Shown in pieces: positions 6,978 to 29,758 of a DNA stretch of 38,404 bases. The stretch covers positions 1 to 38,404 of the forward strand of contig JAFUCP010000055.1 in assembly GCA_017459565.1 (NCBI GenBank), in the 5' to 3' direction. The notes under the pieces are model-generated. The model ran no database searches, had not been told where the DNA came from, and worked only from the letters and a program-made list of their open reading frames with translations. How positions within the stretch are numbered: position 1 is the stretch's first letter; each line of letters starts with the position of its first letter. A program made the position numbers and the translations under genes. The stretch comes from Clostridia bacterium. GTDB lineage: Bacteria > Bacillota > Clostridia > Christensenellales > Aristaeellaceae.

Positions 6978-6987
6978 GGGGAGCAAA

Positions 6988-7545: not shown

Positions 7546-7555
7546 GGAGCGTCCA

Positions 7556-9988: not shown

Positions 9989-9991
9989 CGC

Positions 9992-10020
9992 TTGCGCATT
10001 AGAACGCTGTGTGGTATACT
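9992..10020 (+). promoter_or_regulatory. Promoter of the YjbR/DUF3795 gene
   Basis: TTGCGC (9992-9997), a 17-base spacer and TATACT (10015-10020). The predicted start of transcription falls at the foot of the hairpin at 10023-10054. Confidence 0.7.
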
Positions 10021-10022
10021 GA

Positions 10023-10054
10023 AATAAACATGACACGCTGTTGTCATGTTTATT
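10023..10054 (+). terminator. 13-bp perfect hairpin: parC terminator and/or 5' leader hairpin
   Basis: The arm AATAAACATGACA (10023-10035) pairs perfectly with 10042-10054 around a six-base loop and is followed by CTTTTG. It could end parC transcription. It also lies immediately downstream of the promoter at 9992-10020, so it would form the very 5' end of the next transcript and could protect or regulate it. Confidence 0.6.
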
Positions 10055-10079
10055 CTTTTGCGGAAAGGGCGATGCGTTC

Positions 10080-10706
10080 ATGCGCTATGAATGGATGGAC
10101 GAATACCTGATGGGCAAGCGAGCCGTGACCAGGGATTTGCAGCCGGAATGGAACTGGATACGCTACAAGGTAGGTGACAGGATGTTCGCCGCGATCCTAC
10201 TGGACGATGAAAACCGACCGTATTACATAAATCTCAAGCTTGAACCGACGGAGGGCGAATTTCTGCGGGGTCAGTATGAGGATATCATCCCGGGCTACTA
10301 TTCCGACAAACGCTGCTGGAATTCCGTCATGCCCGACGGCGCGGTGCCGGACGAGCTGCTCAAATCCCTGCTGGACAAGTCCTATCGGCTGGTGCTGGAG
10401 GGCTTCGGCAAGCAAAAGCAGCGGGAAATACTGGGCCTTAGCTGCTGCGGCACGGATTGCTCCGCGTGCGTTCTGCTGGGAAAGCCTTGCCAGGGCTGCA
10501 ACGCCGCGAAGGGCAAGGTTTTCCACGCTCCAAAGGGAAAGCCCTGTCCGATCTACGCCTGCTGCGTGAACCGCCGCCGTTATGCCACGTGCGGCCAGTG
10601 CCCGGAGGTTCCCTGCAAGCTGTGGCGTGAAACGAGGGACCCAAACCTCACCGATGAGGCCTTCGACGCTTCGATACAGACCAGAGTCTCAAATATGAAG
10701 CTATAA
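10080..10706 (+). CDS. MmcQ/YjbR-like domain fused to a cysteine-rich DUF3795 domain
   Basis: A 208-residue protein starting at ATG 10080. The first ~110 residues look like the MmcQ/YjbR fold (CyaY-like DNA-binding family), from KRAVTRDLQPEWNWIRYKVGDRMFA to LLDKSYRLVLEG. From residue ~118 follows a DUF3795-type segment with twelve cysteines in CCGTDCSAC, GKPCQGC, CPIYACC, CGQCP and PCKLW, which probably binds metal. The biochemical role of either family is not established. The gene is alone, between its own promoter and a cluster of hairpins. The assignment of the N-terminal domain is less sure than that of the C-terminal one. Confidence 0.75.
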   Translation: MRYEWMDEYLMGKRAVTRDLQPEWNWIRYKVGDRMFAAILLDDENRPYYINLKLEPTEGEFLRGQYEDIIPGYYSDKRCWNSVMPDGAVPDELLKSLLDKSYRLVLEGFGKQKQREILGLSCCGTDCSACVLLGKPCQGCNAAKGKVFHAPKGKPCPIYACCVNRRRYATCGQCPEVPCKLWRETRDPNLTDEAFDASIQTRVSNMKL

Positions 10707-15205: not shown

Positions 15206-16084
15206 TCAAGGCCTGTAAACCCTGAGTTTGCGCGCAATCAGGCGTACGTCAAAGGGCAGGCCGTCGTATATCTCCCCGTCGATCTGTATGGACAGAGGCG
15301 CGTCTGAGATGATGGTCAGCCGGCGGTCGCGGCGAAAGGCGGTGGTGGGCAGCTCAAGTATGCGGCTTTTCAGCAGCTTTATCAGAGCGGCGGGAATACG
15401 CGCGCGGGATATGCCGTCCACGATCACAATATCCATCAGCCCGTCGTCTATCTCGGCCTCGGGACACACGGGGATGCCGCCGCCGATGCGCCTCCCGTTT
15501 CCGGCGCAGGCGATCAGCGCGCTGTGGGGCCGCCTTGCGCCGTCCAGACATTCGGAAAAGCTGCGCGGCCTGTAGGAGATCAGGGTCATAAGCAGCGAGG
15601 CCAGGTAGGCGGGGGAGCCCTTCAGCAGCTTCATCCGCCCGTAGCGCCTGAGTATCTCCACATCGATGCCCGTTCCGATGACGTTGATGCCGCGCACGCC
15701 GCCACATTCCATGTAGTCCGTGTGCCTGGCTTCGCCCTCAAGCAGCAGCTTCAGCGCCGCCAAGGGCGCATCGGGAATGTGCGCCGCCGCCGCGAAGTCA
15801 TTTCCGCTGCCGCAGGGCATGATACCCAGCCGGACCTTCGCGGGGTCGTCTATGCCGTTCAGAACCTCGTTCAGCGTGCCGTCCCCGCCCATGGCCACGA
15901 TATCCAAATCAGCGTCGCCTGCGCCGCAGGTCAGCTCTTTGGCGATTTCGATGGCGTGCCTGGCGCGGCGGGTTTCATAAAACCGATATTCAACGCCTGA
16001 AGCGACCAGCAGCCCGTCCAATTCAGCGCGGCAGCGCGCGGACCGGCCCTTTCCGGCAATGGGGTTGTATATGAAGTGGTACAT
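15206..16084 (-). CDS. Diacylglycerol/lipid kinase family protein (DagK/YegS-type)
   Basis: A 292-residue protein with the family blocks YNPIAGKG at the N-terminus, MGGDGTLNEVLNG (about 65-77) for ATP, and MPCGSGNDFAAA (about 89-100). The C-terminal beta-rich domain ends in the acidic DGEIYDGLPFDVRLI block. Such proteins phosphorylate diacylglycerol or related lipids on the inner membrane face, often returning diacylglycerol from lipoteichoic acid synthesis to phospholipid. Start ATG 16084 is preceded by AGGTCTCC and a weak ribosome site. It reads away from the GH95/LacI operon across a 429-base gap. Confidence 0.9.
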   Translation of the reverse strand: MYHFIYNPIAGKGRSARCRAELDGLLVASGVEYRFYETRRARHAIEIAKELTCGAGDADLDIVAMGGDGTLNEVLNGIDDPAKVRLGIMPCGSGNDFAAAAHIPDAPLAALKLLLEGEARHTDYMECGGVRGINVIGTGIDVEILRRYGRMKLLKGSPAYLASLLMTLISYRPRSFSECLDGARRPHSALIACAGNGRRIGGGIPVCPEAEIDDGLMDIVIVDGISRARIPAALIKLLKSRILELPTTAFRRDRRLTIISDAPLSIQIDGEIYDGLPFDVRLIARKLRVYRP

Positions 16085-16513
16085 GTTGCAGGAGACCTTT
16101 CCGTCCGGGCGGAATGATCGCCGCCTCTTCCGTTTCCATTTGCGGAAATAAGAAAAGCAGGCCGCGTTGGGATGGCGCGCGATGGGGGGAGCGCGCCGTC
16201 ACGTCCGATTCCTAAGGAAGGGGGCAATCTGAGGGAGATCAGCTGAATCGAACGCGGTCTGCCTTGTAGATAAAGCATACGCGCCAATTATCAACTCAAT
16301 ATAAACTCCGGCGGAGCCGGACGCAAAAAAACGCGGCCTGTCAGAACGGCACATATCCACATTACAAATGAGGCCTCGACAGAATCAACAGGGTTTTTCC
16401 CGGGAATACATGATGTCATAAGCCTGCATCCGCGGCAGATCGTGCATTGAACATTACAAACGAAGGCCGCCCTTGAAGAGCCCTTTTCGTTCCTGTGCGG
16501 GGTTGAGCGCGCG
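16085..16513. other. Intergenic region with hairpins and a short direct repeat, no gene seen
   Basis: No open frame here has a ribosome site or a recognisable motif. It contains a 10-bp stem (16171-16180 with 16191-16200, one G-T pair), a TCCGGC/GCCGGA hairpin (16307-16321) followed on the minus strand by TTTATAT that could end LacI transcription, and two imperfect copies of ACATTACAAA(T/C)GA(A)GGCC at 16359-16375 and 16451-16468. A weak minus-strand promoter for the lipid kinase (TTGATA, 16-base spacer, TATCTA) may lie near 16270-16293. Confidence 0.5.
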
Positions 16514-17545
16514 TTACGGTCGGCCGACGGAATTGCGCTGCACCAGCTCGCCCGCGACGGGGACGCGCAGCTCGCGGGGAATCTGCGCGCCGTGGAGCAA
16601 ATCCAGCAGGCACTGCGCGGCCCTGTAGCCGATTTCATGCAGGGGCAGCGCCATGCTGGTCAGCGACGGGGCCAGAAAATCCGCCGCGTCCGTGTTGTCG
16701 TAGCCGATGACCGAGAGGTCCCGGCCCGCGTGCAGGCCCTGTGCAGACAGATAATCGTATACACCGGCGGCGATGAAGTCCTGAGCGCATATGACGGCGG
16801 TTGCCCCGTTCGCAAGCAGCTTCTCCGCGGCCTCGAAGCCGGTTTGCCGGCCCCAGTGCTTGCAGTAGACCAGCTCCGGGTCATAGGTCAGGCCCGCGTC
16901 CTCCAGGGCCTGGCGATAGCCCTTCAGACGGTTGATGACGTGGATATTGTCTGGTTCGCCGCCGATAAAGCCGATTTTGCCGTGGCCGTTTTCGATGAGG
17001 AACCGGGCCGCCTTTGCGCCGCCGCCCACGTCGTCCAGAATGAAGGCGGGCACATCGGGATCCTCCGGAAAGGCGTAAATGCAGACCACGGGCGTCTTGG
17101 GGTCCTGCCCGATGCCGCGGACCGTGCGCTCATGTCCGCCGACGTACAGCACGCCGTCCACACGGAACCGCCTGAGCTGCTCCAGCGCGGGCTGCAGCAC
17201 CGACTGGTACAGCGCGTCGTCGTTGAACCAGGAATCGCTCCAGCGCGAATACAGGCGAAGGTTTTGCAGGATGATGTGATAGCCGTGGGCCTCGCAGCAC
17301 TCCATAATGCCATCGATGATCCCGGGAATATTGAACATGATAAGGTCGTCCGCGATGACGCCGATCATCCCGGAGGCCTTTGCGCGCAGCCCCTTGCCCA
17401 GATAGCTGGGCTGGAAGCCCGTCTGCTGTATGACCTCGCGGATTCGTCGCGCCGTCTCGGGGCTGACGCGGCCTGTTCCGTTGATCACATTGGATATGGT
17501 TGCCGATGAAACGTTGCATATCCTAGCCAATTCTTTTATCGTCAT
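16514..17545 (-). CDS. LacI-family transcriptional regulator
   Basis: A 343-residue protein. The helix-turn-helix at residues 1-24 (TIKELARICNVSSATISNV, then hinge-helix region VSPETARRIREVI) is standard for LacI. The sugar-binding core follows: GMIGVIADDL, GVLYVGGH, the ARFLIENGHGKIGFIGG block and the C-terminal VIGYDNTDAADFLAPSLTSM. Its ATG overlaps the stop of the GH95 gene (ATGA), so both are made from one message. Regulation of the fucosidase and of itself by a fucosylated or related sugar is the natural inference. No transporter genes are linked. Confidence 0.92.
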   Translation of the reverse strand: MTIKELARICNVSSATISNVINGTGRVSPETARRIREVIQQTGFQPSYLGKGLRAKASGMIGVIADDLIMFNIPGIIDGIMECCEAHGYHIILQNLRLYSRWSDSWFNDDALYQSVLQPALEQLRRFRVDGVLYVGGHERTVRGIGQDPKTPVVCIYAFPEDPDVPAFILDDVGGGAKAARFLIENGHGKIGFIGGEPDNIHVINRLKGYRQALEDAGLTYDPELVYCKHWGRQTGFEAAEKLLANGATAVICAQDFIAAGVYDYLSAQGLHAGRDLSVIGYDNTDAADFLAPSLTSMALPLHEIGYRAAQCLLDLLHGAQIPRELRVPVAGELVQRNSVGRP

Positions 17546-19902
17546 ATCGTATTCTCTCCCGGGTTTTGGATAGCTGCCGGATCGCCGCCTGTGAAGCGCC
17601 AGCTTCTCACCGGCGGTTCGTCTTCTGAAATATGAAGCGTCCGTCCGTTGACATGTACATTGGTAGCTGCGGGGCGCTTCCTCGAAACTGTCAGCCTTGT
17701 GACGCTCCCGTCGTCGAAGTCGAAATCGAGAGTGACGCCGCCCGGCGCGCGCAGACCGGCCGCGTGACCGTGCCGCCAGGCATCCGGCAGGGCGGGAAGA
17801 ATGTCGATGTCAGAGCCTTGCCCCGTGACGAGCATCCGTGCGATGGCGGCGCAGATGCCGAAATTCCCGTCGATCTGGAAGGGCGGGTGGGCGTCCAGCA
17901 GGCTGATATAGCTGCCGCCGTGTTCGAGGTTGCAGGCCGTGCCGGCCTCCACGGGCCGAAGCTGCCGCCGGAGCAGGCTGTGGGCGTGGTTCCCGTCGCC
18001 CAGCGCGGCCCAGGCAGCCGTCTTCCATGCCAGGCTCCAGCCCGTGCCGTCGTCTCCCCGCAGCAGCAGGGACTGCCTCGCGGCTTCGCGGATTACAGCG
18101 TCGGCGCTTTCGCCGGGGTACAGCGCGTAAAGGTGGGAAATGTGGCGGTGATGGGGCTCCGCCTCCTCGTATTCCGCGTCCCATTCCATGAGCTGGCCTC
18201 TGCTTCCGACCTTCAGCGGGGGCAGCCGGTCCAGGGCGCTTCGCGCCTCGGCAGACATGGGTTCGGTCGTGCGCAGCCGGTTAAGAATATGCAGATAATC
18301 CTCCAGGACCTCGCGCATGATCGTCGTCGTCATGGCGCTGCGGGCGGCCACGCCGCACCTTCGCCCCTCATAGAGGAAGTGGTTCTCCGGGGAGGATGCC
18401 GGCGCAATGGTCAGGGCGCCTTCGCCGTCCGGCACCGCCACGTCCAGGTAAAAGCGCGCGACAAGGCGGTAGAGTGGAAGCGCGCGGTCGCGCAAAAAAA
18501 CGTCGTCGGGGCTATAGCGGTCATGCTCCATGAGATGGCGCAGCATCCAGCCCAGCGACATGGGCCAGAAGGCGAAGCCGCCGAAGCCCGCGTGGCGCTC
18601 GCCCACGGGATTTGACAGTCGCCAGATATCCGTGTTGTGGTGGGACACCGCGCCGCCCACGCCGTAATGCGCCCGGGCCGTGCGCTGGCCGGTGACGCAC
18701 AGATCGCCGATCAGGCGGAAAAGCGGCTCGCACAGCTCCGGCAGATTCACCGCTTCCGCGGCCCAGTAGTTCATCTGAGTGTTGATGTTGATGGTATAAT
18801 TGCAACTCCATATCGCCCGCAGGTCCTGGTTCCAGATGCCCTGCAGGTTTGCGGGCTCGCCGCCGGGACGGGAGCTGGCGATCAGCAGGTAGCGGCCATA
18901 GTGGAACAGCAGCGCGCACAGCCCGTCGTCGTCGTCGTACTGTCCCCGTATGCGCGCGTCCGTGGGCAAATCGTCATATCGATCATCTCCCAGCGCCAGA
19001 TCCACGCGGTCAAACAGACGGCGGTGATCCGCCACATGGGCCTCAAGAGCCGCACGCCATGTCAGGCCCAAGAGGCGCTCAAGGTCTGCCTCACAGAGTG
19101 CCTTTTCATCCCGGCCGTCCACAAAGGGCTGGCGGTCATAGCCGTTGAAGCTGGTCCGGGCAACCAGCCTCAATTCGACGGAATCGGCGTCGCGAATGCT
19201 GAGCGTTTCGCCGCGCGCTTCGATGCGCCCGCCTATGGCCGTCGCAGTCAGCACCGCCCTTGCGCGCATACCCTTGCGCTCTGGCTCCGGCAGATAGGTG
19301 ACGGGATTGTCGCAGTCGATATAGGAGGGTACGACATCCGAGGGCGCCAGCACATCCAGAACCAGCCTGCCGCCTTCGGCCCGGCAAGCGCCGCGCAGCG
19401 CAGAGGAGAGGGAAACATCGATGTTAATCGCGCCGGGACGGTCTGCCGAGAGCCGTACCAGCAGCGCCTGGGCGGGATGGGAGACGAAGGCTTCACGGGT
19501 AAAGCGCGCCTCGCCCAGCCGATAGCATGTTTCATGGATGGCGTCCGACAGTGAAAGCCTGCGCACCAGGTCGCGCGCCTCCCGGTCGCCCGTATGCGCG
19601 ATCGTCATATCGCCAAGGGGCAGGTAGCTCTGGGTAAACGCGCCAAGCAGCTTATCATCGATCAGCGACTGTGCCTCGATCAGCCTGCCTGCCAGCGCCA
19701 GATCGCGGGCCTGGGCGTAGTGGGCCGCGGCGCCGACGCGGTCGGTCTGCCTGGGATAGCCGGACCACAGCGTCTCTTCGTTCAGGGCCATGCGCTCCAC
19801 GCGCCCGCCGCCAAAGACCATGGCGCCGATCCGACCGTTGCCGATGGGCAGCGCTTCCTCCCACCGCTGTGCGGAAGAACGGTACCAAAGCTCCTTATTC
19901 AC
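17542..19902 (-). CDS. Glycoside hydrolase family 95 (alpha-L-fucosidase-type)
   Basis: A protein of about 786 residues. I chose GTG 19902, ten bases after GGGAGG; an in-frame ATG at 19920 has no ribosome site. There is no signal peptide, so it should act in the cytosol. The N-terminal beta-domain opens EALPIGNGRIGAMVFGG and NEETLWSG. The (alpha/alpha)6 barrel shows ANLQGIWNQD, ININTQMNYW with the two asparagines of the active site, PASSPEN with the probable acid Glu, HRHISHLYALYPGE, GTGWSLAWK and QIDGNFG. These are GH95 landmarks. Known members remove alpha-1,2-linked fucose; alpha-galactosidase activity also exists in the family. Co-transcribed with the LacI gene. Confidence 0.9.
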   Translation of the reverse strand: MNKELWYRSSAQRWEEALPIGNGRIGAMVFGGGRVERMALNEETLWSGYPRQTDRVGAAAHYAQARDLALAGRLIEAQSLIDDKLLGAFTQSYLPLGDMTIAHTGDREARDLVRRLSLSDAIHETCYRLGEARFTREAFVSHPAQALLVRLSADRPGAINIDVSLSSALRGACRAEGGRLVLDVLAPSDVVPSYIDCDNPVTYLPEPERKGMRARAVLTATAIGGRIEARGETLSIRDADSVELRLVARTSFNGYDRQPFVDGRDEKALCEADLERLLGLTWRAALEAHVADHRRLFDRVDLALGDDRYDDLPTDARIRGQYDDDDGLCALLFHYGRYLLIASSRPGGEPANLQGIWNQDLRAIWSCNYTININTQMNYWAAEAVNLPELCEPLFRLIGDLCVTGQRTARAHYGVGGAVSHHNTDIWRLSNPVGERHAGFGGFAFWPMSLGWMLRHLMEHDRYSPDDVFLRDRALPLYRLVARFYLDVAVPDGEGALTIAPASSPENHFLYEGRRCGVAARSAMTTTIMREVLEDYLHILNRLRTTEPMSAEARSALDRLPPLKVGSRGQLMEWDAEYEEAEPHHRHISHLYALYPGESADAVIREAARQSLLLRGDDGTGWSLAWKTAAWAALGDGNHAHSLLRRQLRPVEAGTACNLEHGGSYISLLDAHPPFQIDGNFGICAAIARMLVTGQGSDIDILPALPDAWRHGHAAGLRAPGGVTLDFDFDDGSVTRLTVSRKRPAATNVHVNGRTLHISEDEPPVRSWRFTGGDPAAIQNPGENTI

Positions 19903-19982
19903 AATCTTCGAGCCTCCCATCGCAGGTCCAGGATTCCGGGGAAAAAACGAGACAGCAAAAACATGACTGATATATCGTCTTA

Positions 19983-20309: not shown

Positions 20310-21824
20310 GTGATTCAGTGGATCTTTTACGCCATGGTTTATCTTGGAAGCGCGCTCATGGCCTATAATATCTATGGGTTTATATGCTTTACCCGCTTCA
20401 TCAGGAAGATGAAGACCTGGAACCAGGGCAGTTTGATTCTCAGCATCCCCGTCATGCTGCTGGTATTCTTCCTGCTGGGCTATATTGCGATTGGGCTCTT
20501 TGCGGAGCCGTCAATTTTCGTGGGCGGCGTGCTTTTCGGCGGCAGCATATTCGTATTTGTGATGTACAAGCTGCTGAACAACATCGTTCAGCGCGTCGTC
20601 GAGAGCGAGCATCTTGAAGCGCAGCTGTTGGCCGCAGAGGAGAGCAGCCGGGCGAAGTCCAACTTCCTCGCCAGCATCAGCCATGAGATGCGCACGCCCA
20701 TGAACGTCATCCTCGGGCTGGATACCCTCGCCATGAACACGCCCGGCCTGCCCCGGACGACAAAGGAGCAGCTGGAGAAAATCGGTCACAGCGCAAGGCA
20801 TCTGTCAGAGCTGATCAACGGCATACTCGATATGCAGCAGATCGAGAGCGGGGAGATGAAGATCAACAGCGAGCCTTTTTTGCTGATGGAGGCTCTGGAG
20901 CAGGTCAACGCCCTGGCATCCTCGGCCTGCGAGGAAAAGGGACTGGCCTACTGCTTCTCCTTTGACGATTGTGCGGAGCAGCGCTACGACGGCGATGTGA
21001 CGCAGCTGAAGCGGGCGATCATGTGCCTGATGGACAATGCGGTCAAATATACCGACGCGCCCGGCACGGTGAAATTCATCGTCAGCGGCGCAAGCGCCCA
21101 GGAGACGACCAGACAATTGCACTTTACCGTTCTGGATACCGGCGTGGGCATCGACGAAGCGTTTCTGGAAAAGGTGTTTGAACCCTTCGCCCAGGAGGAT
21201 GAGAGCTATACCAACCGCTTCGGCGGCAGCGGCATGGGCCTGACGGTGGCCAACGGCATCGTCACCCACATGGGCGGAAGGATCGACGTGGTGAGCCATA
21301 AGGGCGAAGGCTCCGCGTTCACCATCACCATCCCCATGGAGCTGTCACATCCCGACGCGCCGCCGGCGGAGGCCGGCGCGAAGCAGGACGGGGACGGCGA
21401 TGCCGACAGCCTTGAGGGCCGCCGCGTCCTGATCGTAGAGGACACGCCGGAAAACGCGGAGATCGTGGCGGACCTGCTGGAGCTTGAAGGCGCTCAAAGC
21501 GAACACGCTGAAAACGGAATGGTTGCCATCAAGATGGTAACAGAATCCGAAAAATGGCATTACGACGCGATCCTGATGGATCTTCGGATGCCTGTGATGG
21601 ATGGAATCGAGGCTGCGCGGAATATCCGCGCGCTGGAGCGGGAGGATGCCAGACATGTGCCGATCATCGCGCTGACAGCCAATGCCTTTGACAGCGACAT
21701 ACAGCACTCCAGGGAAGCGGGCATGAACGAGCACCTGGTAAAGCCCGTGGAGGCCGACAGGCTGTATGCCGTGCTTCGGAAATGGATTCGGAGCGAAATA
21801 GCGGGAAGGGGAGTGTGGACTTGA
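20310..21824 (+). CDS. Membrane hybrid histidine kinase (HisKA-HATPase-REC)
   Basis: A 504-residue protein. I chose GTG 20310, six bases after GGAGGG. Three membrane helices lie at about 3-25, 41-63 and 66-88, with almost no extracytoplasmic domain. The phosphoacceptor is His125 in SISHEMRTP. The ATPase has DNAVKY, DTGVGI and FGGSGMGL. The receiver (about 372-495) has phosphoacceptor Asp424 in LMDLRMP. The output must leave by phosphotransfer, since no DNA-binding domain is present. The stand-alone HPt protein two genes downstream is the natural acceptor. The receiver closely resembles the last receiver of the permease-kinase at 23929. First gene of the signalling locus; its stop overlaps the next start (TTGA). 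Confidence 0.93.
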   Translation: MIQWIFYAMVYLGSALMAYNIYGFICFTRFIRKMKTWNQGSLILSIPVMLLVFFLLGYIAIGLFAEPSIFVGGVLFGGSIFVFVMYKLLNNIVQRVVESEHLEAQLLAAEESSRAKSNFLASISHEMRTPMNVILGLDTLAMNTPGLPRTTKEQLEKIGHSARHLSELINGILDMQQIESGEMKINSEPFLLMEALEQVNALASSACEEKGLAYCFSFDDCAEQRYDGDVTQLKRAIMCLMDNAVKYTDAPGTVKFIVSGASAQETTRQLHFTVLDTGVGIDEAFLEKVFEPFAQEDESYTNRFGGSGMGLTVANGIVTHMGGRIDVVSHKGEGSAFTITIPMELSHPDAPPAEAGAKQDGDGDADSLEGRRVLIVEDTPENAEIVADLLELEGAQSEHAENGMVAIKMVTESEKWHYDAILMDLRMPVMDGIEAARNIRALEREDARHVPIIALTANAFDSDIQHSREAGMNEHLVKPVEADRLYAVLRKWIRSEIAGRGVWT

Positions 21825-23515
21825 TCAACTCCAAACAGATACAGAGACCGAAGCTCGTATTGGTCGTGGACGATCAGGAGATCAACCGCGATGCGCTGGG
21901 CGTGATCCTTGAGGATGATTATGAAATCATCTGCGCCTCCGACGGTTCGGAGGCACTGAAGGAGATCCAGGCGCATGTGGACAATCTTTCAATCGTCCTG
22001 CTGGATCTGATGATGCCCGTGATGAACGGCTTCGAGGTTTTGGAGCGCATGGCCGGGGACGACCGAATGAAGCACATACCCGTCATCGTGCTGACGGCGG
22101 ATAAGAGCGCGGAACTGCGGGCCCTGCAAATGGGCGCGGCGGATTTCATCACCAAGCCCTTTGACGTGCCGGAGGTCATCATCGCCCGCGTGGCCAGGAT
22201 CATCGAACTCAGCGAGGGCCGCCAACTGATCTCCGCCGCGGAGCATGACCCGGTGACGCTGCTGTACAGCCGAAATTTCTTCTTTGAATATGCCAACCGC
22301 TTGCACCATTATTCGCCGGAGCTTCATCTGGATGCCGTCGTCTTGGATATTGAGCAGTTCCACACCATCAACGCCGTCAACGGGCGGGACTTTGGGGACG
22401 ATGTGCTGCGCGTCGTGGGCGCGGAGATCCGCGATTTTCTTTCGGAAACCGAGGGCATTGCCTGCCGCTTTGAGGCGGACCGCTTTGAAATCTATTGCGT
22501 GCCGCAGCCAGACTATCAGGCGCTGCTGGAGCGCTTCCAGCGCAGGGTGGGCCGGATATCGCCCAACGTCAGCATCCACCTGCGCATGGGTGTGAACCCC
22601 TGGCAGGAGGGCGTGGAGCCGGTATTGATGTTTGACCGGGCCCGTGCCGCCAGCACCATGGTCCGTGGCAATTACCAGAGCCCGCTGATGATCTACGACG
22701 AGGACATGCGGATGCGGGAGCTGCGGGACCGCCGCTTCCTGAATGAATTACGCTCTGCCATCCAAACGCGGCAGCTCAGGGTTTTCTATCAGCCGAAATA
22801 CGATATTCAGTGCGACCCGCCCAGACTTTCCAGCGCCGAAGCGCTGATTCGCTGGCAGCACCCGGAGCTTGGCATGATCAGCCCCGGAGATTTCCTGCCG
22901 CTGTTTGAGGGCAACGGGCTGATCGGGGTGGTGGACAATTACGTCTGGCAGGTGGCCGCGGCCCAGATTGCCGAATGGCGCAAAAAGTACGGCGTAAAGC
23001 TGCCGGTGTCGGTGAATTTGTCCCGAAATGATGTGTTCGATCCGACGCTCATCGACCGGCTGGTGCGGATTATTGAAGATAACGGGCTGGATTACAGCGA
23101 TATGAAGATGGAGGTCACCGAATCCGCATACACAGAGAAGGCCAACGACCTTTTGCAGGTGGTTAACAGGCTGCGGCAGCTGGGCTTTGAGATCGAGATG
23201 GACGACTTTGGCTCCGGCTATTCGTCGCTTAACATGCTCTCATATATGCCCATCGACGTGCTGAAGATGGACATGAAATTCGTCAGGAACATCGAATCCA
23301 GCGAAACGGACCTGAGGCTGGTAAAGCTGATACTGGATATTGCAAAGTACCTGAAGCTGCGGGTGGTAGCCGAGGGTGTGGAGACGGAGGGACAGCTGGC
23401 GCTGCTGAAGGACAGCGGCTGCGACCTGGTGCAGGGCTTTTACTTTTCAAGGCCCCTGCCGCCCGAATCGTTTGAAAAGCTGATCGAAAGGGAATTGGAG
23501 ATTGAAAGGGGTTAA
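21821..23515 (+). CDS. Response regulator REC-GGDEF(degenerate)-EAL, c-di-GMP phosphodiesterase
   Basis: A 564-residue protein when started at TTG 21821, which overlaps the kinase stop (TTGA) and has AGGGGAG seven bases before it; ATG 21782 is an alternative with more overlap. The receiver (about 12-125) carries Asp62 in LLDLMMP. The GGDEF-like domain has EADRF at residues 218-222 in place of GGDEF, so it should not make c-di-GMP. The EAL domain (about 305-555) is intact: EAL with Glu340, SVNLSR, EVTES, DDFGSGYSS with Asp461-Asp462, DVLKMD and AEGVET. The predicted role is phosphorylation-controlled hydrolysis of c-di-GMP. It is the likely final receiver of the relay. Confidence 0.92.
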   Translation: MINSKQIQRPKLVLVVDDQEINRDALGVILEDDYEIICASDGSEALKEIQAHVDNLSIVLLDLMMPVMNGFEVLERMAGDDRMKHIPVIVLTADKSAELRALQMGAADFITKPFDVPEVIIARVARIIELSEGRQLISAAEHDPVTLLYSRNFFFEYANRLHHYSPELHLDAVVLDIEQFHTINAVNGRDFGDDVLRVVGAEIRDFLSETEGIACRFEADRFEIYCVPQPDYQALLERFQRRVGRISPNVSIHLRMGVNPWQEGVEPVLMFDRARAASTMVRGNYQSPLMIYDEDMRMRELRDRRFLNELRSAIQTRQLRVFYQPKYDIQCDPPRLSSAEALIRWQHPELGMISPGDFLPLFEGNGLIGVVDNYVWQVAAAQIAEWRKKYGVKLPVSVNLSRNDVFDPTLIDRLVRIIEDNGLDYSDMKMEVTESAYTEKANDLLQVVNRLRQLGFEIEMDDFGSGYSSLNMLSYMPIDVLKMDMKFVRNIESSETDLRLVKLILDIAKYLKLRVVAEGVETEGQLALLKDSGCDLVQGFYFSRPLPPESFEKLIERELEIERG

Positions 23516-23519
23516 TCAA

Positions 23520-23888
23520 ATGACGTTGAGGGAACTGTACCAGAATATCGGCGCTGATTATGACCAGGCGCTTCGCGTGCTGCGGGTGGAAAAGCTGGTG
23601 GACAAGCACATCCGAAAGTTTGTCAACAACGGCGTCGTGTCCCAGCTGCTGGAGGCGGGCGCGCAAATGGAGTCCGCCCGCATGTTTGAAGCCGCCCATG
23701 CCGCCAAGGGGGTGTGTGGCAACCTGGGGTTGACCGCGCTTTCCGACATGGCCTCTCAGCTTGCGGAGGAATATCGCCCCGGAAACGCGAGACATATGAG
23801 CGATGAGGACGTAAAGGCCGTGCTTCAAAGGATTGAGACGGTCCACGACGCGATGGCCGAGGGAATCCGGCAATATATCGAAGGCTGA
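23520..23888 (+). CDS. Stand-alone HPt (histidine phosphotransfer) protein
   Basis: A 122-residue helical protein. ATG 23520 lies four bases after the previous stop with AGGGG before it. The HPt core is MFEAAHAAKGVCGNLGL with phosphorylatable His60, followed by a long helix (LSDMASQLAEEYR). HPt proteins carry phosphate between receiver domains. Its place between two hybrid kinases and beside a REC-EAL protein indicates that it carries phosphate from the kinases' receivers to that regulator. Size and the His-x-x-Lys-Gly pattern fit the family. Confidence 0.88.
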   Translation: MTLRELYQNIGADYDQALRVLRVEKLVDKHIRKFVNNGVVSQLLEAGAQMESARMFEAAHAAKGVCGNLGLTALSDMASQLAEEYRPGNARHMSDEDVKAVLQRIETVHDAMAEGIRQYIEG

Positions 23889-23928
23889 AACATATGGGAA
23901 CCTGGCCTGAAAGGAACAAAATGAATCC

Positions 23929-26900
23929 ATGAACCGTATTACTGCAAGCGCCGACCATCAACGCTCCTCATCCGCCTATCTGTCGTCCATCGGCGCATGG
24001 GCGCTGGCCTTCGGGTGCAGCGTGGGCTGGGGAGCCTTTGTCATGCCAGGCACCACCTTTTTGCCCATCGCCGGCCCGCTGGGAACTGCGCTCGGCATCG
24101 CTATCGGCGCGTTGGTCATGCTGGTCCTCGCCGCCAATTACCACTACCTGATGAACCGCTTTCCCGATGGCGGGGGTACCTTTACCTATACCAAGCAGAG
24201 CTATGGCTATGACCACGGCTTTTTAAGCGCGTGGTTTTTGATACTGACCTACATCGCCATCATTTGGGCCAACGCCACCGCGCTGCCGTTGATCGCGCGC
24301 ACGCTGCTGGGCGGAACGTTTCAATTTGGCTTTGATTATGAAATCGCGGGCTACCATATCTATATGGGAGAAATTTTGCTCGCAAACCTTTCGCTGCTGC
24401 TGTCGGCGCTGGTTTGCCTGCGCAATCGGCTGGCTCAGAAGGTACAAACCGCCGCCGCAGTGGTGCTGCTGGCGGGCGTGCTGATTTGCTTTGTCTGCGC
24501 TCTGGGACGCAACGGCGCGGATCTCAGAGCGCTTGCGCCCGCGTTTTCCCCGAATCATTCCCGGCTGGGCGGCGCGTTCACAATCTTTGCCCTGGCCCCA
24601 TGGGCCTTTGTGGGGTTTGAATCCATCTCCCATTCGGCGGCAGAGGCTAAATTCCCGATGAAAAAGGCTTTTGCCATCATGGCCGTGGCGCTTTTAACGG
24701 CGGCGATTGTCTATATAGCTCTGGCGGTGATGGCCGCCTCCGCCGTGCCGGAGGGCTGCGCATCCTGGGTGGACTATCTGGCCAACCTGGACAGCTTCAG
24801 CGGCATCAGCTCCCAGGCTGCCTTTTTTGCCGCCAACGCCGCTCTGGGCAGCTTTGGCAACGCGGTGCTGGGCTTTGCAGCCCTTGGGGCGATCCTGACG
24901 GGCCTGATCGGCAATTATATTGCCTTGAGCCGCCTGCTCCGCGCGCTTTCAGAGGACGGGATGCTGTCTGGCTGGGTGGGCGCACTGGACAAAAACCGCG
25001 CGCCGAAGAACGCCATTCTGCTCATCCTCTCCGTTTCGCTGGTGCTGCCCTTCTTCGGCAGGGCCGCCATCAGCTGGATCGTGGATGTGACCACCGTGGG
25101 CGCGACCATCGCCTATGCCTTTGCTTCGGCTTCGGCCTTCAAGACCGCGCGGCGGGAAAACAACCGGCGCATGGTGGTGATTGGGCTCATGGGGCTGATC
25201 GTCTCCGTGCTGTTTGCGCTGGAATTCCTGATTCCCAATCTGACCAGTGTCAAAACCCTGTCCACCGAATCCTATCTCATCCTCGCCGCTTGGGGGATAA
25301 TGGGCTTTGTGGTGTTCCGGCTCATCCTCACGCGAGATGACAAGCGTCGTATGGGGCGCTCCATCGTGGCGTGGGTGGTGCTGCTGGGGCTGATCATATT
25401 TACCTCAACCGTCTGGATGCGCCAGTCTACCGAGGCATCCATGGAGCGCTCCATACAGCAGGTGCAGCATTACTATGTCGGTAAGCTCGAGGAAACCGGC
25501 GTGGAAATGACCGATGGCAAGATGGATTCGAGCCTGGCCTATCTTGAGGATACGTTGAACGATGCCAATGCCACGCTGGACAATTCCAGCCTCATCATGA
25601 TCATCCTGATTGTCGTCGCGCTGATCATATTGTTGGAAATCTACACCCAAATGCAGAAGCGGGAGCGGCAGGTTGAGGTTGAAAAGGCGCTGGCGGAGGA
25701 AAACAGCCGCGCCAAGACCAGCTTTTTGTCCAACATGAGCCATGAAATCAGAACGCCCATGAACGCCATCATTGGCCTGGACAACATCGCTCTGCGGGAC
25801 CCCGGTCTGACGCCCAGGACCCGGGAGCATTTGGAAAAAATAGGGGCCAGCGCCAGGCATCTGCTGGGCCTCATCAACGATATTCTGGATATGAGCCGCA
25901 TCGAATCCGGGCGGATGGTGCTGAAAAACGAAGAGTTTTCCTTTCGGGAATTCCTGGACCAGATCAACATTATCATCAACGGCCAGTGTCAGGACAAGGG
26001 GCTGCGCTATGAGTGCCAGATCATCGGCCGCGTCGGAGACTACTATTTCGGCGACGACATGAAGCTCAAGCAGGTTCTGATCAACATCCTGGGCAATTCC
26101 GTGAAATTCACCGACGCGCCTGGAGATGTGACGCTGACCGTCGAAGAAGCCGCGCGGGACGACGGGATGTGTAAGCTGCGCTTTACTATGTCAGACACGG
26201 GCATTGGCATGGACGAGGAATATATTCCAAAGATTTTCGAAGCCTTTTCCCAGGAGGACGCTACGGCCACCAACCGCTATGGCGGCAGCGGCCTGGGCAT
26301 GTCCATCACCAGAAATTTCGTGGATATGATGAACGGCGAAATTGACATCAAGAGCAAAAAAGGCGTGGGCTCCACTTTTACCGTCACCGTCAGCCTGAAG
26401 GCCTCCGACCGAAGTGCCATGGAGCGCGGGATGGGCTTTGCCGACGATTTCAGAGCCTTTGTCGCCGACGACGACGAGATCGCCTGTGAGCATACCCTGC
26501 TTGTACTCAAGAGCCTGGGCATTGAGGCTGATACCTGCACGGATCCGATCGAGGCCATCGGACGCATACGCCATGCCGTGGAGGCGGGGCGCGCCTATCA
26601 GCTGGTGCTGACCGACTACAAGATGCCGCGGCTCAACGGTCTGGAGCTGGTTCGGGAACTCAGGTCCTTTGACGGCGGCCTTACCGCGGTGATCATGCTG
26701 ACGGGCTATAACTGGGATATCATCGAGGAGGAAGCCCGAGAGGGCGGCGTGGACGGCATCCTGGCCAAGCCGCTGTTCTGCGACAGCCTGATGCGCGAAA
26801 TCAACGCCGTGCTGGACAGGCGGCTGGGGAACCGAACGGAGCAGGCCGCGCAGGGCCCTGCGGCGGACAGTTCAGCCGTACTGGCGGGGCGGCGCGTGCT

Positions 26901-27285
26901 GATGGCCGAAGACGTGGAGCAAAACGCCGAAATTCTTGCCGACCTGCTGGAGCTTGAGGATATTGAGGCCGAACACGCCAAAAATGGCGAAATCGCGGTG
27001 CAGATGTTCGCAAAGAGCCCGGTGGACTACTACGACGCCATCCTCATGGACGTACGTATGCCCGTGCTGGATGGCCTTTCGGCCACGCAGCGGATTCGCG
27101 CGCTGGATCGCGCCGATGCCGGGACTGTGCCGATCATTGCCATGACCGCCAATGTTTTCGACGAGGACGTCGAGCGCTCCTTACAGGCCGGCATGGACGC
27201 GCATCTTTCCAAACCCATCGAGCCTGAACGGCTCTACGAAACCATGGCGCAGCTGATTACCAAGCGGGAGAAGGAACGGCAGTGA
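23929..27285 (+). CDS. Amino-acid permease (APC) fused to hybrid histidine kinase with two REC domains
   Basis: A single 1118-residue frame. Residues ~16-480 form an APC-superfamily amino-acid permease with about 12 membrane helices; the start shows GCSVGWGAFVMPGT, the substrate-site loop of helix 1, and PFPDGGG-like NRFPDGGGTF follows. Next come a thirteenth helix, an outside segment of about 70 residues and a last helix (to about 580). The kinase follows: His605 in NMSHEIRTP, GNSVKF, DTGIGM and YGGSGLGM. Two receivers carry Asp896 (LTDYKMP) and Asp1041 (LMDVRMP). There is no output domain, so it must signal through an HPt protein such as the one 40 bases upstream. The permease probably senses, or senses and carries, an amino acid or amine. 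No stop or frame change separates the parts. Confidence 0.93.
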   Translation: MNRITASADHQRSSSAYLSSIGAWALAFGCSVGWGAFVMPGTTFLPIAGPLGTALGIAIGALVMLVLAANYHYLMNRFPDGGGTFTYTKQSYGYDHGFLSAWFLILTYIAIIWANATALPLIARTLLGGTFQFGFDYEIAGYHIYMGEILLANLSLLLSALVCLRNRLAQKVQTAAAVVLLAGVLICFVCALGRNGADLRALAPAFSPNHSRLGGAFTIFALAPWAFVGFESISHSAAEAKFPMKKAFAIMAVALLTAAIVYIALAVMAASAVPEGCASWVDYLANLDSFSGISSQAAFFAANAALGSFGNAVLGFAALGAILTGLIGNYIALSRLLRALSEDGMLSGWVGALDKNRAPKNAILLILSVSLVLPFFGRAAISWIVDVTTVGATIAYAFASASAFKTARRENNRRMVVIGLMGLIVSVLFALEFLIPNLTSVKTLSTESYLILAAWGIMGFVVFRLILTRDDKRRMGRSIVAWVVLLGLIIFTSTVWMRQSTEASMERSIQQVQHYYVGKLEETGVEMTDGKMDSSLAYLEDTLNDANATLDNSSLIMIILIVVALIILLEIYTQMQKRERQVEVEKALAEENSRAKTSFLSNMSHEIRTPMNAIIGLDNIALRDPGLTPRTREHLEKIGASARHLLGLINDILDMSRIESGRMVLKNEEFSFREFLDQINIIINGQCQDKGLRYECQIIGRVGDYYFGDDMKLKQVLINILGNSVKFTDAPGDVTLTVEEAARDDGMCKLRFTMSDTGIGMDEEYIPKIFEAFSQEDATATNRYGGSGLGMSITRNFVDMMNGEIDIKSKKGVGSTFTVTVSLKASDRSAMERGMGFADDFRAFVADDDEIACEHTLLVLKSLGIEADTCTDPIEAIGRIRHAVEAGRAYQLVLTDYKMPRLNGLELVRELRSFDGGLTAVIMLTGYNWDIIEEEAREGGVDGILAKPLFCDSLMREINAVLDRRLGNRTEQAAQGPAADSSAVLAGRRVLMAEDVEQNAEILADLLELEDIEAEHAKNGEIAVQMFAKSPVDYYDAILMDVRMPVLDGLSATQRIRALDRADAGTVPIIAMTANVFDEDVERSLQAGMDAHLSKPIEPERLYETMAQLITKREKERQ

Positions 27286-27291
27286 CTACAG

Positions 27292-27331
27292 CGTGTGGGC
27301 TGACCGGTCTGCAAGCCGGTTATTTCACACG
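27292..27331 (+). promoter_or_regulatory. Nested hairpin between permease-kinase and EAL gene
   Basis: CGTGTG (27292-27297) pairs with CACACG (27326-27331), enclosing ACCGG (27303-27307) with CCGGT (27316-27320), in the 72-base gap. There is no U-run, so it may be a processing or stability element rather than a terminator. Confidence 0.4.
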
Positions 27332-27357
27332 AATGGCGCGGGAGGCGCGTTCAAACC

Positions 27358-29103
27358 ATGAATGATTCCATACATATCGACGCGGCTGGTCGGATCCCCA
27401 CAGGGCTTCCGGGCGGGTTCTTCGTCTATGAAGCGCAGGGGGATGAAAAGCTGCTCTTCGCGGATGCCAACGTGGTCAAAATGTTCGGCTGCGAAACCTA
27501 CGCCGAATTTATGGATTATGTGGGCGGCTCCTTCAAAGGCATGGTGCATCGGGAGGACCTCGATAAGATCGAGAACCAGATCCAGGCGCAAACGTCCTTT
27601 GGAGATATGCGCCACGATTACGTGCGCTACCGCATCGTAACCAAGCAGGGCGATATTCGTTACATAGAGGATTTCGGCCATCTGCTGCACGGCGAGGACG
27701 GGAAGAGCTTTTTCTACGTGTTCATCGTGGATGTGGACCAGAATGAGTATCTGAACCGCAATCGCAATTCCCTGGCGGAGGCGGAGATCCTGTCCGCCAA
27801 CCGCGATATCGATGCGCTGACCGGTCTTTTCAACATGTCCTTTTTCTACCAGAAGGTGCAGACGCTCCTTGCTTCGCCCCAGGGACGGCGGAATAACTAC
27901 TCCATCGTCCACTTTGACATTCCGAATTTCAAGCTGTACAACGAGCGCCTGGGCTTCAGAATGGGCGATGAATTGCTCCGCGCCTTCGCCGATGTGATTC
28001 GCAAGACGTTCTCCGGCGGCGTGATCGCCCGTTTTTCGGACGATCACTTTGTGGTCTGTACCACGGGCAGCCGGGACGAGGTGGTCGAGGGCGTGTCGTC
28101 GGTCTGCTCAGCCATGCTTCGCACGGAGGATGTGAACAAGAAGGTGCGCGTAAAGGCCGGCATCTATTGTATGGACAACCGCTGCGCGGAGGTGGGTCTC
28201 GCCTGCGACCATGCCCGGCTGGCCTGCAACAGCATCAAGCAGCGCCACGATGTTTCCTACTGCATCTATGACGAAATGATGCGCGACAGGATGCGAAAGC
28301 AGCAGTATGTGCTGGACAACATCGAAAAGGCTGTGGAATATGGATATATCATGGTCTACTATCAGCCCGTGGTTCGGGTCAGCAGCGGCGAGATTTGCGG
28401 CTATGAGGCGTTGGTGCGCTGGGTGGACCCGGATGTGGGTATGCTCGCGCCCGCGGATTTCATCGAAACGTTGGAGCAGTACCAGCTGATTAACGTCGTG
28501 GACCAGTATGTGGTCAAGCAGGTCTGCAAGGATTTCAGAGAGCTGATGGACGCGGGGGAGAGCATCGTGCCCGTATCCATCAACATATCCCGACTTGACT
28601 TTGAGCTGTGTGACATCGTCGGGATCATCGAACAGACCCGGGAAAGCTACGGCGTTCCCCGGCAGATGCTGGACATTGAGATTACGGAGAGCGCCCTGAA
28701 CGACAATGTCGGCCACATCCGTTCGGAATGTGACCGACTGAAGGCGCTGGGCTATCATATCTGGCTGGATGACTTCGGCAGCGGCTATTCCTCTCTCAAT
28801 ACGCTGGCGGAATATCCCTTTGACGTATTGAAGATGGACCTGGTCTTTTTGCGCACGCGGGAACACAACGCCAAGACCAGCGATTTGATGACCTATATCA
28901 TCGACGGCGTGCAGGGCATGGGCCTTGCGCCGCTGTGCGAAGGCGTGGAATCCGCCGAACAGCTGGCATTTTTGAGGGAAATCGGCTGCGAACGGGCTCA
29001 GGGCTATTTCTTCGGAAAGCCCATGCCGCTGTGGGAATCCAGGGCGTTTGCCAGGAACCGGGGCATGAAGATTGAAACCGTCGCGCCGCAGCTGGACCGT
29101 TAA
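27358..29103 (+). CDS. PAS-like-GGDEF(degenerate)-EAL protein, c-di-GMP phosphodiesterase
   Basis: A 581-residue soluble protein. Residues ~17-128 look like a PAS domain (FADANVVKMFGC, VHREDLDKI, YRIVTKQGDIRYIEDFG). The GGDEF-like domain has SDDHF at 227-231 in place of GGDEF, so cyclase activity is unlikely. The EAL domain (about 318-565) keeps YEALVRW (Glu350), SINISR, EITES, DDFGSGYSSLN (Asp471-Asp472), DVLKMD and CEGVES. It should hydrolyse c-di-GMP in response to a small-molecule or redox signal on the PAS domain. It lacks a receiver, so it joins the locus as a second, independent input to the same messenger. The stop overlaps by four bases with that of the convergent ECF gene. Confidence 0.92.
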   Translation: MNDSIHIDAAGRIPTGLPGGFFVYEAQGDEKLLFADANVVKMFGCETYAEFMDYVGGSFKGMVHREDLDKIENQIQAQTSFGDMRHDYVRYRIVTKQGDIRYIEDFGHLLHGEDGKSFFYVFIVDVDQNEYLNRNRNSLAEAEILSANRDIDALTGLFNMSFFYQKVQTLLASPQGRRNNYSIVHFDIPNFKLYNERLGFRMGDELLRAFADVIRKTFSGGVIARFSDDHFVVCTTGSRDEVVEGVSSVCSAMLRTEDVNKKVRVKAGIYCMDNRCAEVGLACDHARLACNSIKQRHDVSYCIYDEMMRDRMRKQQYVLDNIEKAVEYGYIMVYYQPVVRVSSGEICGYEALVRWVDPDVGMLAPADFIETLEQYQLINVVDQYVVKQVCKDFRELMDAGESIVPVSINISRLDFELCDIVGIIEQTRESYGVPRQMLDIEITESALNDNVGHIRSECDRLKALGYHIWLDDFGSGYSSLNTLAEYPFDVLKMDLVFLRTREHNAKTSDLMTYIIDGVQGMGLAPLCEGVESAEQLAFLREIGCERAQGYFFGKPMPLWESRAFARNRGMKIETVAPQLDR

Positions 29104-29657
29104 GCGTCCATGCGCTTGAGCAGCCCCGAGGATCGCAGCGCGGGCAGCACCGCATGGTAAAACAGCGGCGCGGCCACCACGGCGACGCCCGCGTTGATCA
29201 GCGAGGGGATCAGCTTGGAAACCACCGTCGCCCATACCGTGTCCATCGGATAGCCATAGACAAACTTGTTGAATACAAAGGTCTTGAGCATGTACAAAAA
29301 CACATAGGTCGCGGCGCCGCAGACGCAGGAGAGCAGCGTGCGGTCGATGTGCGCCTTTTCACGGCCGGCGGAGTGAAGCACCCAGCCGCAGACAAAGCCC
29401 ATGGCAAATTTGCTCACGAGGGTGATCAACACATTGACGACATCGTAGCCCGCCACCGCGTCATACAGCGCCGAACCGATGCCCGCGGCCAGACCGCCCT
29501 GCAGGGGGCCCAGCAGTATGCCGCTGAGCAGGCACACCGCGTTTGCAAAGTGGACCTTGGAGCCCAGCAGGGGGAAGCGGAACAGCGTCACGACGTAGAC
29601 CATGGCGGCCATCATGGCCATAAAGGTGATGTTGAATATGGAAAAGGACTTTTTCAT
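29100..29657 (-). CDS. ECF transporter S-component
   Basis: A 185-residue membrane protein. ATG 29657 has a GGAGG site six bases away. It has five to six hydrophobic helices: FNITFMAMMAAMVYVVTLF, then FANAVCLLSGILLGPLQGGLAAGIGSALYD, a block typical of ECF-type vitamin-binding S-components (PF07155-like), then VSKFAMGFVCGW and VSKLIPSLINAGVAVV. It would bind a vitamin or precursor and pair with a general ECF energy module encoded elsewhere. It is divergent from a MocR-type regulator. Relatives of that regulator (PdxR) control vitamin B6 genes, so pyridoxine or a related ligand is a plausible guess, not shown. Confidence 0.8.
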   Translation of the reverse strand: MKKSFSIFNITFMAMMAAMVYVVTLFRFPLLGSKVHFANAVCLLSGILLGPLQGGLAAGIGSALYDAVAGYDVVNVLITLVSKFAMGFVCGWVLHSAGREKAHIDRTLLSCVCGAATYVFLYMLKTFVFNKFVYGYPMDTVWATVVSKLIPSLINAGVAVVAAPLFYHAVLPALRSSGLLKRMDA

Positions 29658-29679
29658 GTCGCACCTCCGTAAATCGCGC

Positions 29680-29708
29680 TTGACTTTTGTTGTGGCCCAG
29701 TATATACT
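29680..29708 (+). promoter_or_regulatory. Promoter of the MocR gene, with palindromic -10
   Basis: TTGACT (29680-29685), 17-base spacer, TATACT (29703-29708). The -10 lies in the perfect palindrome AGTATATACT (29699-29708), so a minus-strand -10 for the ECF gene overlaps it, and one regulator could control both directions. Confidence 0.7.
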
Positions 29709-29758
29709 AAAATTGATTCCATTAAAAGTACCAGAAACAAACAAAATAATAAGGCCAG

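Follow-up and report, generated by a model that had tools for sequence, protein, structure and literature searches.

In Pseudomonas aeruginosa, the PvrS/RcsC-PvrR/RcsB system (and likewise Roc: RocS1/RocS2-RocR) leads from a hybrid kinase through a histidine phosphotransfer (Hpt or HPt) domain to a receiver-EAL (REC-EAL) phosphodiesterase of cyclic diguanylate (c-di-GMP), and in the HptB-HsbR system of Pseudomonas a stand-alone HPt serves several hybrid kinases together with a regulator that lacks a DNA-binding domain (PMC5812489 for both). In Xanthomonas, the RpfC/RpfG system consists of a hybrid kinase with an Hpt and a receiver fused to a c-di-GMP phosphodiesterase (PMC3749722). Transporter domains are found as kinase sensors in CbrA and CrbS/MxtR (SLC5-STAC), where a LeuT-fold transporter domain is fused to a histidine kinase (PMC13022988, PMC7918813), and in the ammonium-transporter histidine kinase of Candidatus Kuenenia stuttgartiensis, which combines a membrane transporter domain with a histidine kinase (PMC5764959). 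Here, we describe a four-gene unit located, together with a fifth gene, on one contig (JAFUCP010000055.1) of an uncultured Clostridia bacterium of the gut (Christensenellales; Aristaeellaceae), whose assembly GCA_017459565.1 comprises 3.4 Mb in 249 contigs. The whole stretch analyzed, positions 1 to 38,404 of this contig, is referred to as the window. Judging from its sequence, the unit is likely to form a multistep phosphorelay with a c-di-GMP phosphodiesterase output, driven by two membrane hybrid kinases through an HPt protein.

The unit would work like the PvrS-RcsC-PvrR and RpfC-RpfG systems and is a member of neither; its parts are known, while their combination appears to be new. The order from hybrid kinase to Hpt to REC-EAL, here predicted from the genes, is shared with PvrS/RcsC-PvrR. 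In the Pvr/Roc systems, however, the Hpt lies inside an unorthodox kinase and a sibling regulator with a helix-turn-helix (HTH) domain shares the phosphate, whereas here the HPt is a separate open reading frame (ORF), no HTH regulator was found among the four genes in the ORF list or by Pfam, the regulator has an additional degenerate GGDEF domain and one kinase carries a permease sensor. RpfG is an HD-GYP rather than an EAL protein and the Hpt is fused to RpfC, although HPt relatives in other genera of the order adjoin REC-HD-GYP(-GGDEF) regulators. Unlike CbrA and CrbS, gene 4 contains an AA_permease_2 domain of the amino acid-polyamine-organocation (APC) family, similar to AdiC and to cationic amino acid transporters (CAT), without SSF or STAC, and its presumed target is a phosphodiesterase instead of a transcription factor. 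The Kuenenia kinase has an Amt-type transporter where an amino acid permease is found here, and the output of HptB-HsbR consists of PP2C-like and Ser/Thr kinase domains, not of a c-di-GMP enzyme. No description of the four-gene unit or of an APC-permease/histidine-kinase fusion was found in the titles and abstract openings of the open-access literature searched, which shows its absence from print only weakly. The features of the unit and of the gene that follows it are given below.

20310..21824, + strand: gene 1, hybrid kinase with HisKA, HATPase_c and one receiver (Pfam)
21453..21488, + strand: alpha1 docking helix of the gene 1 receiver, NAEIVADLLELE (receiver alignment, class-informative columns)
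21821..23515, + strand: gene 2, REC, degenerate GGDEF (EADRF) and EAL, predicted c-di-GMP phosphodiesterase (Pfam)
22742..23455, + strand: EAL domain of gene 2 (PF00563 search of the genome)
23520..23888, + strand: gene 3, stand-alone HPt of 122 aa (PF01627 over cut-off)
23697..23699, + strand: His60 codon of the HPt, the phospho-acceptor (HAAKG motif)
23929..27285, + strand: gene 4, APC-family permease, helical linker, HisKA, HATPase_c, REC and REC (Pfam)
23989..25233, + strand: AA_permease_2 domain of gene 4, AdiC/CAT-like fold (Pfam, AlphaFold2, Foldseek)
25366..25695, + strand: two long helices linking permease and kinase in gene 4 (model helices 466-509 and 518-575; gene 4 residues 480-589)
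26458..26802, + strand: first receiver of gene 4, optional among relatives
26896..27243, + strand: terminal receiver of gene 4, which would donate phosphate to the HPt
26923..26958, + strand: alpha1 docking helix of the gene 4 terminal receiver, NAEILADLLELE (receiver alignment)
27358..29103, + strand: gene 5, PAS (PAS_3), degenerate GGDEF (SDDHF) and EAL, a neighbor and not a conserved member (Pfam)

As described in the initial annotation, all five ORFs lie on the + strand at these positions, and two gene pairs are coupled or nearly so: the stop codon of gene 1 and the TTG of gene 2 overlap by 4 bases, and the stop codon of gene 2 is 4 bases apart from the ATG of the HPt gene. The starts GTG 20310, TTG 21821 and ATG 23520 were each observed by eye behind a purine-rich, ribosome-binding-like stretch, with GGGAGGG preceding that of gene 1. 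Numbered from these likely starts, the phospho-acceptors are His60 of the HPt and, counted from TTG 21821, Asp62 of the REC-EAL protein, the same two residues that had been proposed (H66 and D75 in the longer ORFs). Across the five ORFs, HisKA, HATPase, REC, EAL, Hpt and AA_permease_2 were all matched over the Pfam cut-off. The kinases, the HPt, the REC-EAL and the PAS-EAL had been correctly recognized, while the degenerate GGDEF domain in both EAL proteins and the second receiver of gene 4 had been overlooked. The output of gene 2 is EAL, with no HD domain match in Pfam. At the N-terminus of gene 1, about 110 largely hydrophobic residues with about three transmembrane segments (by eye) were observed, without a named sensor domain.

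The phosphorelay reading is supported by the gene order, the domain content, near-invariant phospho-acceptor and catalytic residues, a shared docking helix and a recurrent pairing of HPt with phosphodiesterases. The neighboring genes, the kept catalytic residues and the common docking helix support the simplest relay suggested at the outset, from hybrid kinases to HPt to REC-EAL. In the proposed mechanism, the two membrane hybrid kinases would autophosphorylate, one sensing via its APC amino-acid-permease domain and the other via a short membrane anchor, and the phosphate would move to the terminal receivers of genes 1 and 4. Both terminal receivers would dock on the stand-alone HPt (His60) via the common alpha1 helix, and the HPt would hand the phosphate to Asp62 of the REC-GGDEF-EAL protein, setting its c-di-GMP phosphodiesterase activity. 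We infer the direction of phosphate flow, activation rather than inhibition, and any downstream effect.

The HPt was searched in 60 genomes, including that of the window, with strong matches defined by an E-value below 1e-28. Up to 20 kb around each HPt was examined, and the synteny counts rest on home-made profiles, built from the window's own domains and used to class the ORFs, and on E-value cut-offs of 1e-3. Strong matches were found in 23 of the 27 other genomes of the genus; those without one were G013, G016, G023 and G024 (listed completeness 67, 94, 88 and 83). A set of 80 loci from named bacterial genomes, the best 80 of 223 relatives, was classed with the same profiles. Among their titles are Lachnospiraceae isolates, Ruminococcus albus strains, and Erysipelotrichaceae and Coriobacteriia bins, and close named HPt relatives carry titles such as uncultured Clostridiales bacterium. 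Together, the genus and named loci amounted to 99 distinct loci once 5 rows with an HPt C-terminus identical to another row were set aside.

The four-gene arrangement is far beyond chance. The full order of hybrid kinase-receiver (HK-REC), REC-GGDEF-EAL, HPt and permease-HK was observed in 18 of the 21 evaluable loci of the genus (24 in all) and in 37 of the 62 evaluable named loci (75 distinct), contig ends aside, as well as in one genome from another genus of the family (G335, L253). Loci with the full order include titles from Clostridia, Erysipelotrichia and Coriobacteriia. Most of the unit, namely REC-EAL, HPt and permease kinase, is present in the Ruminococcus albus loci L190 and L198. 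Among the 99 distinct loci, some of which end at contig ends, a REC-GGDEF-EAL gene adjoins the HPt in 70, an HK-REC gene lies upstream in 66 and a permease-type gene lies downstream in 86. The distance from the REC-GGDEF-EAL stop to the HPt start is -4 bases in 21/70 loci and 3 to 6 bases in 27/70. Within the genus, the gene immediately 5' of the HPt is REC-GGDEF-EAL in 23 of 24 loci; in the remaining one (L097), which is truncated by a contig end, a fragment of EAL can still be seen. Scattering of the genes in close relatives, which the initial annotation had regarded as a refutation, is absent within the genus and partly seen outside it. Horizontal transfer of the unit is not claimed: fitting the class labels to the REC-GGDEF-EAL tree takes 5 changes against a minimum of 3, but a single clade of the genus on this tree was not rejected (approximately unbiased test, AU p 0.327), and the labels of the Actinomycetota hosts, which are metagenome bins, may be wrong.

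The residues expected of such a relay are kept almost without exception. At the catalytic positions of the EAL family, all 70 of 70 REC-GGDEF-EAL orthologues carry E, A, L, N, E, E, D, D, K and D, and three more residues (E, E and Q) are kept in 69, 69 and 68 of the 70, the remainder being gaps only. The receiver residues D, D, D, T and K of gene 2 are likewise identical in 70/70. Additionally, solved GGDEF-EAL and EAL structures, RocR (3sy8) among them, are relatives of gene 2 by sequence. Its receiver and EAL catalytic residues point to a predicted c-di-GMP phosphodiesterase of the RocR/PvrR kind. The GG[DE]EF signature of diguanylate cyclases is replaced by EADRF in gene 2 and by SDDHF in gene 5; among the 70 gene 2 orthologues, position 1 of the motif is Gly in one and position 4 is Arg in 56. 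The non-catalytic GGDEF domain of gene 2 is probably an allosteric or dimerization element. In the HPt, the His, Lys and Gly are identical in 99/99 distinct loci, and the AlphaFold2 model is helical with a predicted local distance difference test (pLDDT) score of 97.2 and His60 within helix 52-68. The kinase His is present in 65/65 (gene 1) and 77/77 (gene 4) ungapped rows and the receiver Asp of gene 1 in 66/66, while the Asp of the terminal receiver of gene 4 is found in 72 of 86 rows (13 gaps, 1 Ile). The first receiver of gene 4 is missing from 19 of the 70 sequences that hold the terminal one.

Across the order, the profile of the window HPt was found in 86 of 396 genomes. A total of 74 loci were sampled, largely from the upper part of the list and none of them from the genus of the window; genes on the same strand no more than 600 bases away were counted as neighbors. 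This is not a neutral sample, since some of the HPts used to build the profile had already been seen next to regulators of this kind. In 53/74 loci, the HPt has a neighboring receiver with EAL or HD-GYP fused to it, and in 0/74 a receiver with another output. Neither type of neighbor was present in 20/74, in two of which (L290 and L334) the phosphodiesterase gene seems to be cut by the contig end. In the one remaining locus (L260), the HPt ORF was missed by the length filter and the neighbor is a REC-HD-GYP-GGDEF gene. The HHE..(D/N)G.GYP motif is kept in 14/14 HD-GYP regulators checked.

Receivers dock on HPt and kinase helices mainly via alpha1. NAExxADLLELE occurs both in the receiver of gene 1 and in the terminal one of gene 4, and the two receivers agree at 71% over alpha1 (17 columns) versus 57% over the domain. 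Overall, the gene 4 terminal receiver is nearer to those of C149 and C146 (63-64%), two other hybrid kinases of the genome, but their alpha1 differs from that of genes 1 and 4 (35-41%, with 41% to gene 4). Over 47 loci, the eight 17-column segments with the largest excess of gene 1-gene 4 over gene 4-C149 similarity all overlap alpha1. Terminal receivers were then classed solely by their neighboring HPt into A (type of the window; a subsample of 24 receivers, drawn from 12 of the 47 loci), B (type of contig C57; 10 receivers) and C (HPt beside HD-GYP regulators; 16 receivers). The seven most class-informative receiver columns are all in alpha1, where the mean class information is 0.63 bits vs 0.32 elsewhere; relative to column entropy, the values are 0.36 vs 0.23, and 6 of 101 contiguous segments reach the alpha1 value. 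None of 300 label shuffles reached the alpha1 contrast, which we consider support and not proof because the shuffles do not preserve relatedness. Class B is mixed, with four helices resembling NAEIMxMVL and six of 10 of other types.

In the case of gene 4, the N-terminal 576 residues were modeled with AlphaFold2 from an alignment of 35 sequences (pLDDT 84.4; predicted template modeling score, pTM, 0.85). The best Foldseek match was the arginine/agmatine antiporter AdiC 5j4n (template modeling score, TM, 0.81 by target length; E 2.5e-11) and the fourth a bacterial CAT homologue; by sequence, cationic amino acid transporters are the best matches of the permease. Pfam assigned AA_permease_2 and AA_permease, and neither SSF nor STAC was matched at E 0.01. 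GWG.FVMPG and PWA.VGFES, two segments that we assign to transport helices one and six, show no or almost no variation. By Pfam, the model and the Foldseek match, gene 4 is, in the wide sense, a LeuT-fold transceptor kinase in which a complete APC-type core is fused to a histidine kinase; it would act in signalling and may still transport, and its ligand is presumably an amino acid or amine. Mean pairwise identity in gene 4 falls from 0.773 in the kinase core to 0.637 in the permease and 0.500 in the linker; gene 1 has a higher value in its receiver (0.653) than in its kinase core (0.504). In L155, the permease and kinase halves are two ORFs (7400-9061 and 9058-10578) with a 4-base overlap, a natural split (or frameshift) at the border of sensor and kinase. 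Furthermore, a large protein with SBP_bac_3 and PAS domains (and GGDEF in 2/3) was observed beside the HPt and permease kinase in Ruminococcus albus and other hosts (L190:10304-13714, L197:10617-14156 and L152:7613-10243), a possible further extracellular input next to the relay.

The genome of the window (G000) contains 14 HisKA, 32 receiver, 16 EAL and 34 GGDEF matches. Apart from genes 1 and 4, there are hybrid kinases at C149, at C146, where the gene is truncated by a contig end, and at C211; further receiver-EAL proteins are encoded at C57, C158 and C34 (two). Pfam detected two Hpt genes, the second being located at C57 directly after a REC-GGDEF-EAL gene; by alignment, this HPt (type B) belongs to a different family from that of the window (type A). 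At an E-value below 1e-40, type B was found in 20 of the 28 genomes of the genus, and a third HPt group, whose scores with the type-B profile (E about 1e-20 to 1e-22) lie between those of the two types, was observed in six of them (G001, G003, G004, G006, G007 and G012). Type-B HPt genes also occur near type II secretion F (L079:6586-7644) or E (L106:7930-9483; L112:8524-9660) family genes, a possible target of the second relay. C158 (L135:6992-11356) encodes an amino acid permease fused to GGDEF-REC-GGDEF-EAL, with the first GGDEF motif intact and the EAL motif kept, and its permease has 40% identity to that of gene 4. In three loci of the genus (L080, L082 and L085) and three of the named set (L145, L147 and L202), a relative of C158 is the next gene after the permease kinase. 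C158 and these relatives have 1,330 to 1,454 aa where complete, the last three being cut by the locus end. The C34 pair (L134:89-2302 and 15879-18104) encodes REC-GGDEF-EAL-GGDEF proteins with degenerate receivers, one of which has Glu in place of the phospho-acceptor Asp. No PilZ match was found in this genome, and no c-di-GMP effector was identified.

Several observations weigh against the proposed phosphorelay. The most constant neighbor of the HPt is the permease kinase (86/99) and not the REC-EAL gene (70/99), and both HPt and permease kinase occur without an adjacent REC-EAL in 17 of the 75 distinct named loci, contig ends aside. The genome holds at least three further hybrid-kinase receivers plus the second HPt/REC-GGDEF-EAL pair, and cross-talk is possible because two HPts were found for these hybrid kinases and receiver-EAL proteins. 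With these components, the other receiver-EAL proteins and the 17 loci in view, the initial annotation's description of the circuit as self-contained and complete is not supported as it stands. Ten named genomes, eight of them without a REC-EAL beside the type-A HPt, were searched for REC-GGDEF-EAL, and nine have one at 45% identity or more over nearly the full length. In the R. albus loci (2 of the 9 genomes) it is the gene adjoining the type-A HPt; among the remaining seven, it is accompanied by a second-type HPt in six and, in the stretch seen, by no HPt in L229. The tenth genome (G434) has only a match without a receiver. Pairwise co-evolution of the alpha1 helices of genes 1 and 4 was rejected, with nearly equal identities within (0.650) and between genomes (0.644); since pairs from the same genome are no more alike than pairs from different genomes, alpha1 is best described as a class-wide shared helix. 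Part of the alpha1 signal may also be explained by shared descent, because the classes are phylogenetically structured, B is heterogeneous and A is subsampled.

These points bear on several other explanations. The HPt could be a hub that collects from the permease kinase and gene 1 and feeds several receivers, including C158 and perhaps others, which we consider possible but doubtful. The receiver of C158 looks intact, proteins of its type directly follow the permease kinase in six loci, and L143 and L173 have the HPt and both kinases with no REC-EAL between or beside them, the L143 genome carrying a permease-GGDEF-REC-GGDEF-EAL protein elsewhere (L233); the almost constant position of REC-GGDEF-EAL directly 5' of the HPt within the genus speaks against a hub. 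Compatible with the relay proposed here, and in our estimate evenly balanced, is the existence of at least two parallel insulated relays with their own HPt and REC-EAL (A in the window, B at C57), C149 and C146 serving type B. HPt-A and HPt-B are distinct families, and the alpha1 of C149 and C146 reads NAEIMxMVL, as in hybrid kinases by type-B HPts in L247 and L248 and nearly so in L250. Yet the mean alpha1 identity of C149 and C146 is 0.46 to class B vs 0.38-0.40 to class A, most class B helices are, as noted, of other types, and the strict NAEIMxMVL motif (9/28 genus genomes) and HPt-B (20/28) overlap in 7, which is about chance.

HPt transfer is generally reversible, and hybrid kinases may act as phosphatases. 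Both facts would suit an HPt that mainly drains phosphate as a sink or phosphatase path, keeping the REC-EAL unphosphorylated with a net effect on c-di-GMP of opposite sign; we regard such a drain as unlikely. An ordinary co-location of unrelated signalling genes without a common pathway would fit a genome this rich in c-di-GMP genes, but it is highly improbable because of synteny, the order being kept in dozens of genomes, with coupled spacing and a common docking helix.

Gene 5 begins 72 bases past gene 4, and the residues of its EAL domain are kept (by eye). As a member of the unit it was rejected: orthologues (72% identity) were found in 2 of the 27 other genomes of the genus (G022:C66 and G027:C13), away from the contigs with the HPt genes (C247 and C59, respectively), and the next matches by E-value have 38-40% identity. 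The genes conserved as a group are the first four, and the suggestion that the PAS-EAL provides a third input is not supported. The surroundings are ordinary, with DNA gyrase B and A genes, a family 95 glycoside hydrolase and the S component of an ECF-type (energy-coupling factor) riboflavin transporter (window 5016-9988, 17542-19920 and 29100-29744). No Rfam family, such as a c-di-GMP riboswitch, reached the gathering score in the window, and a promoter and terminator scan of it gave no decisive signal.

To our knowledge, most of what is understood of c-di-GMP circuits comes from Proteobacteria, and little is known about their inputs in anaerobic bacteria of the gut. The unit described here is conserved in Clostridia and Erysipelotrichia of the rumen and gut and, going by metagenome bin titles, in Coriobacteriia, and would connect a transporter-derived sensor to a phosphodiesterase. 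The docking-helix classes suggest a cheap predictor for matching orphan hybrid kinases to HPts. We tentatively propose, with slightly less than even confidence, that the stand-alone HPts of these bacteria may be a dedicated class linking hybrid kinases to EAL or HD-GYP phosphodiesterases and not to transcription factors, that several such relays may operate in parallel within one cell, insulated by the receiver docking helix, and that the relay of the window may be driven by an amino acid permease acting as a sensor, with nutrient flux at the membrane setting c-di-GMP breakdown directly. The unit turns the link between nutrients and c-di-GMP into a specific question, testable with purified proteins.

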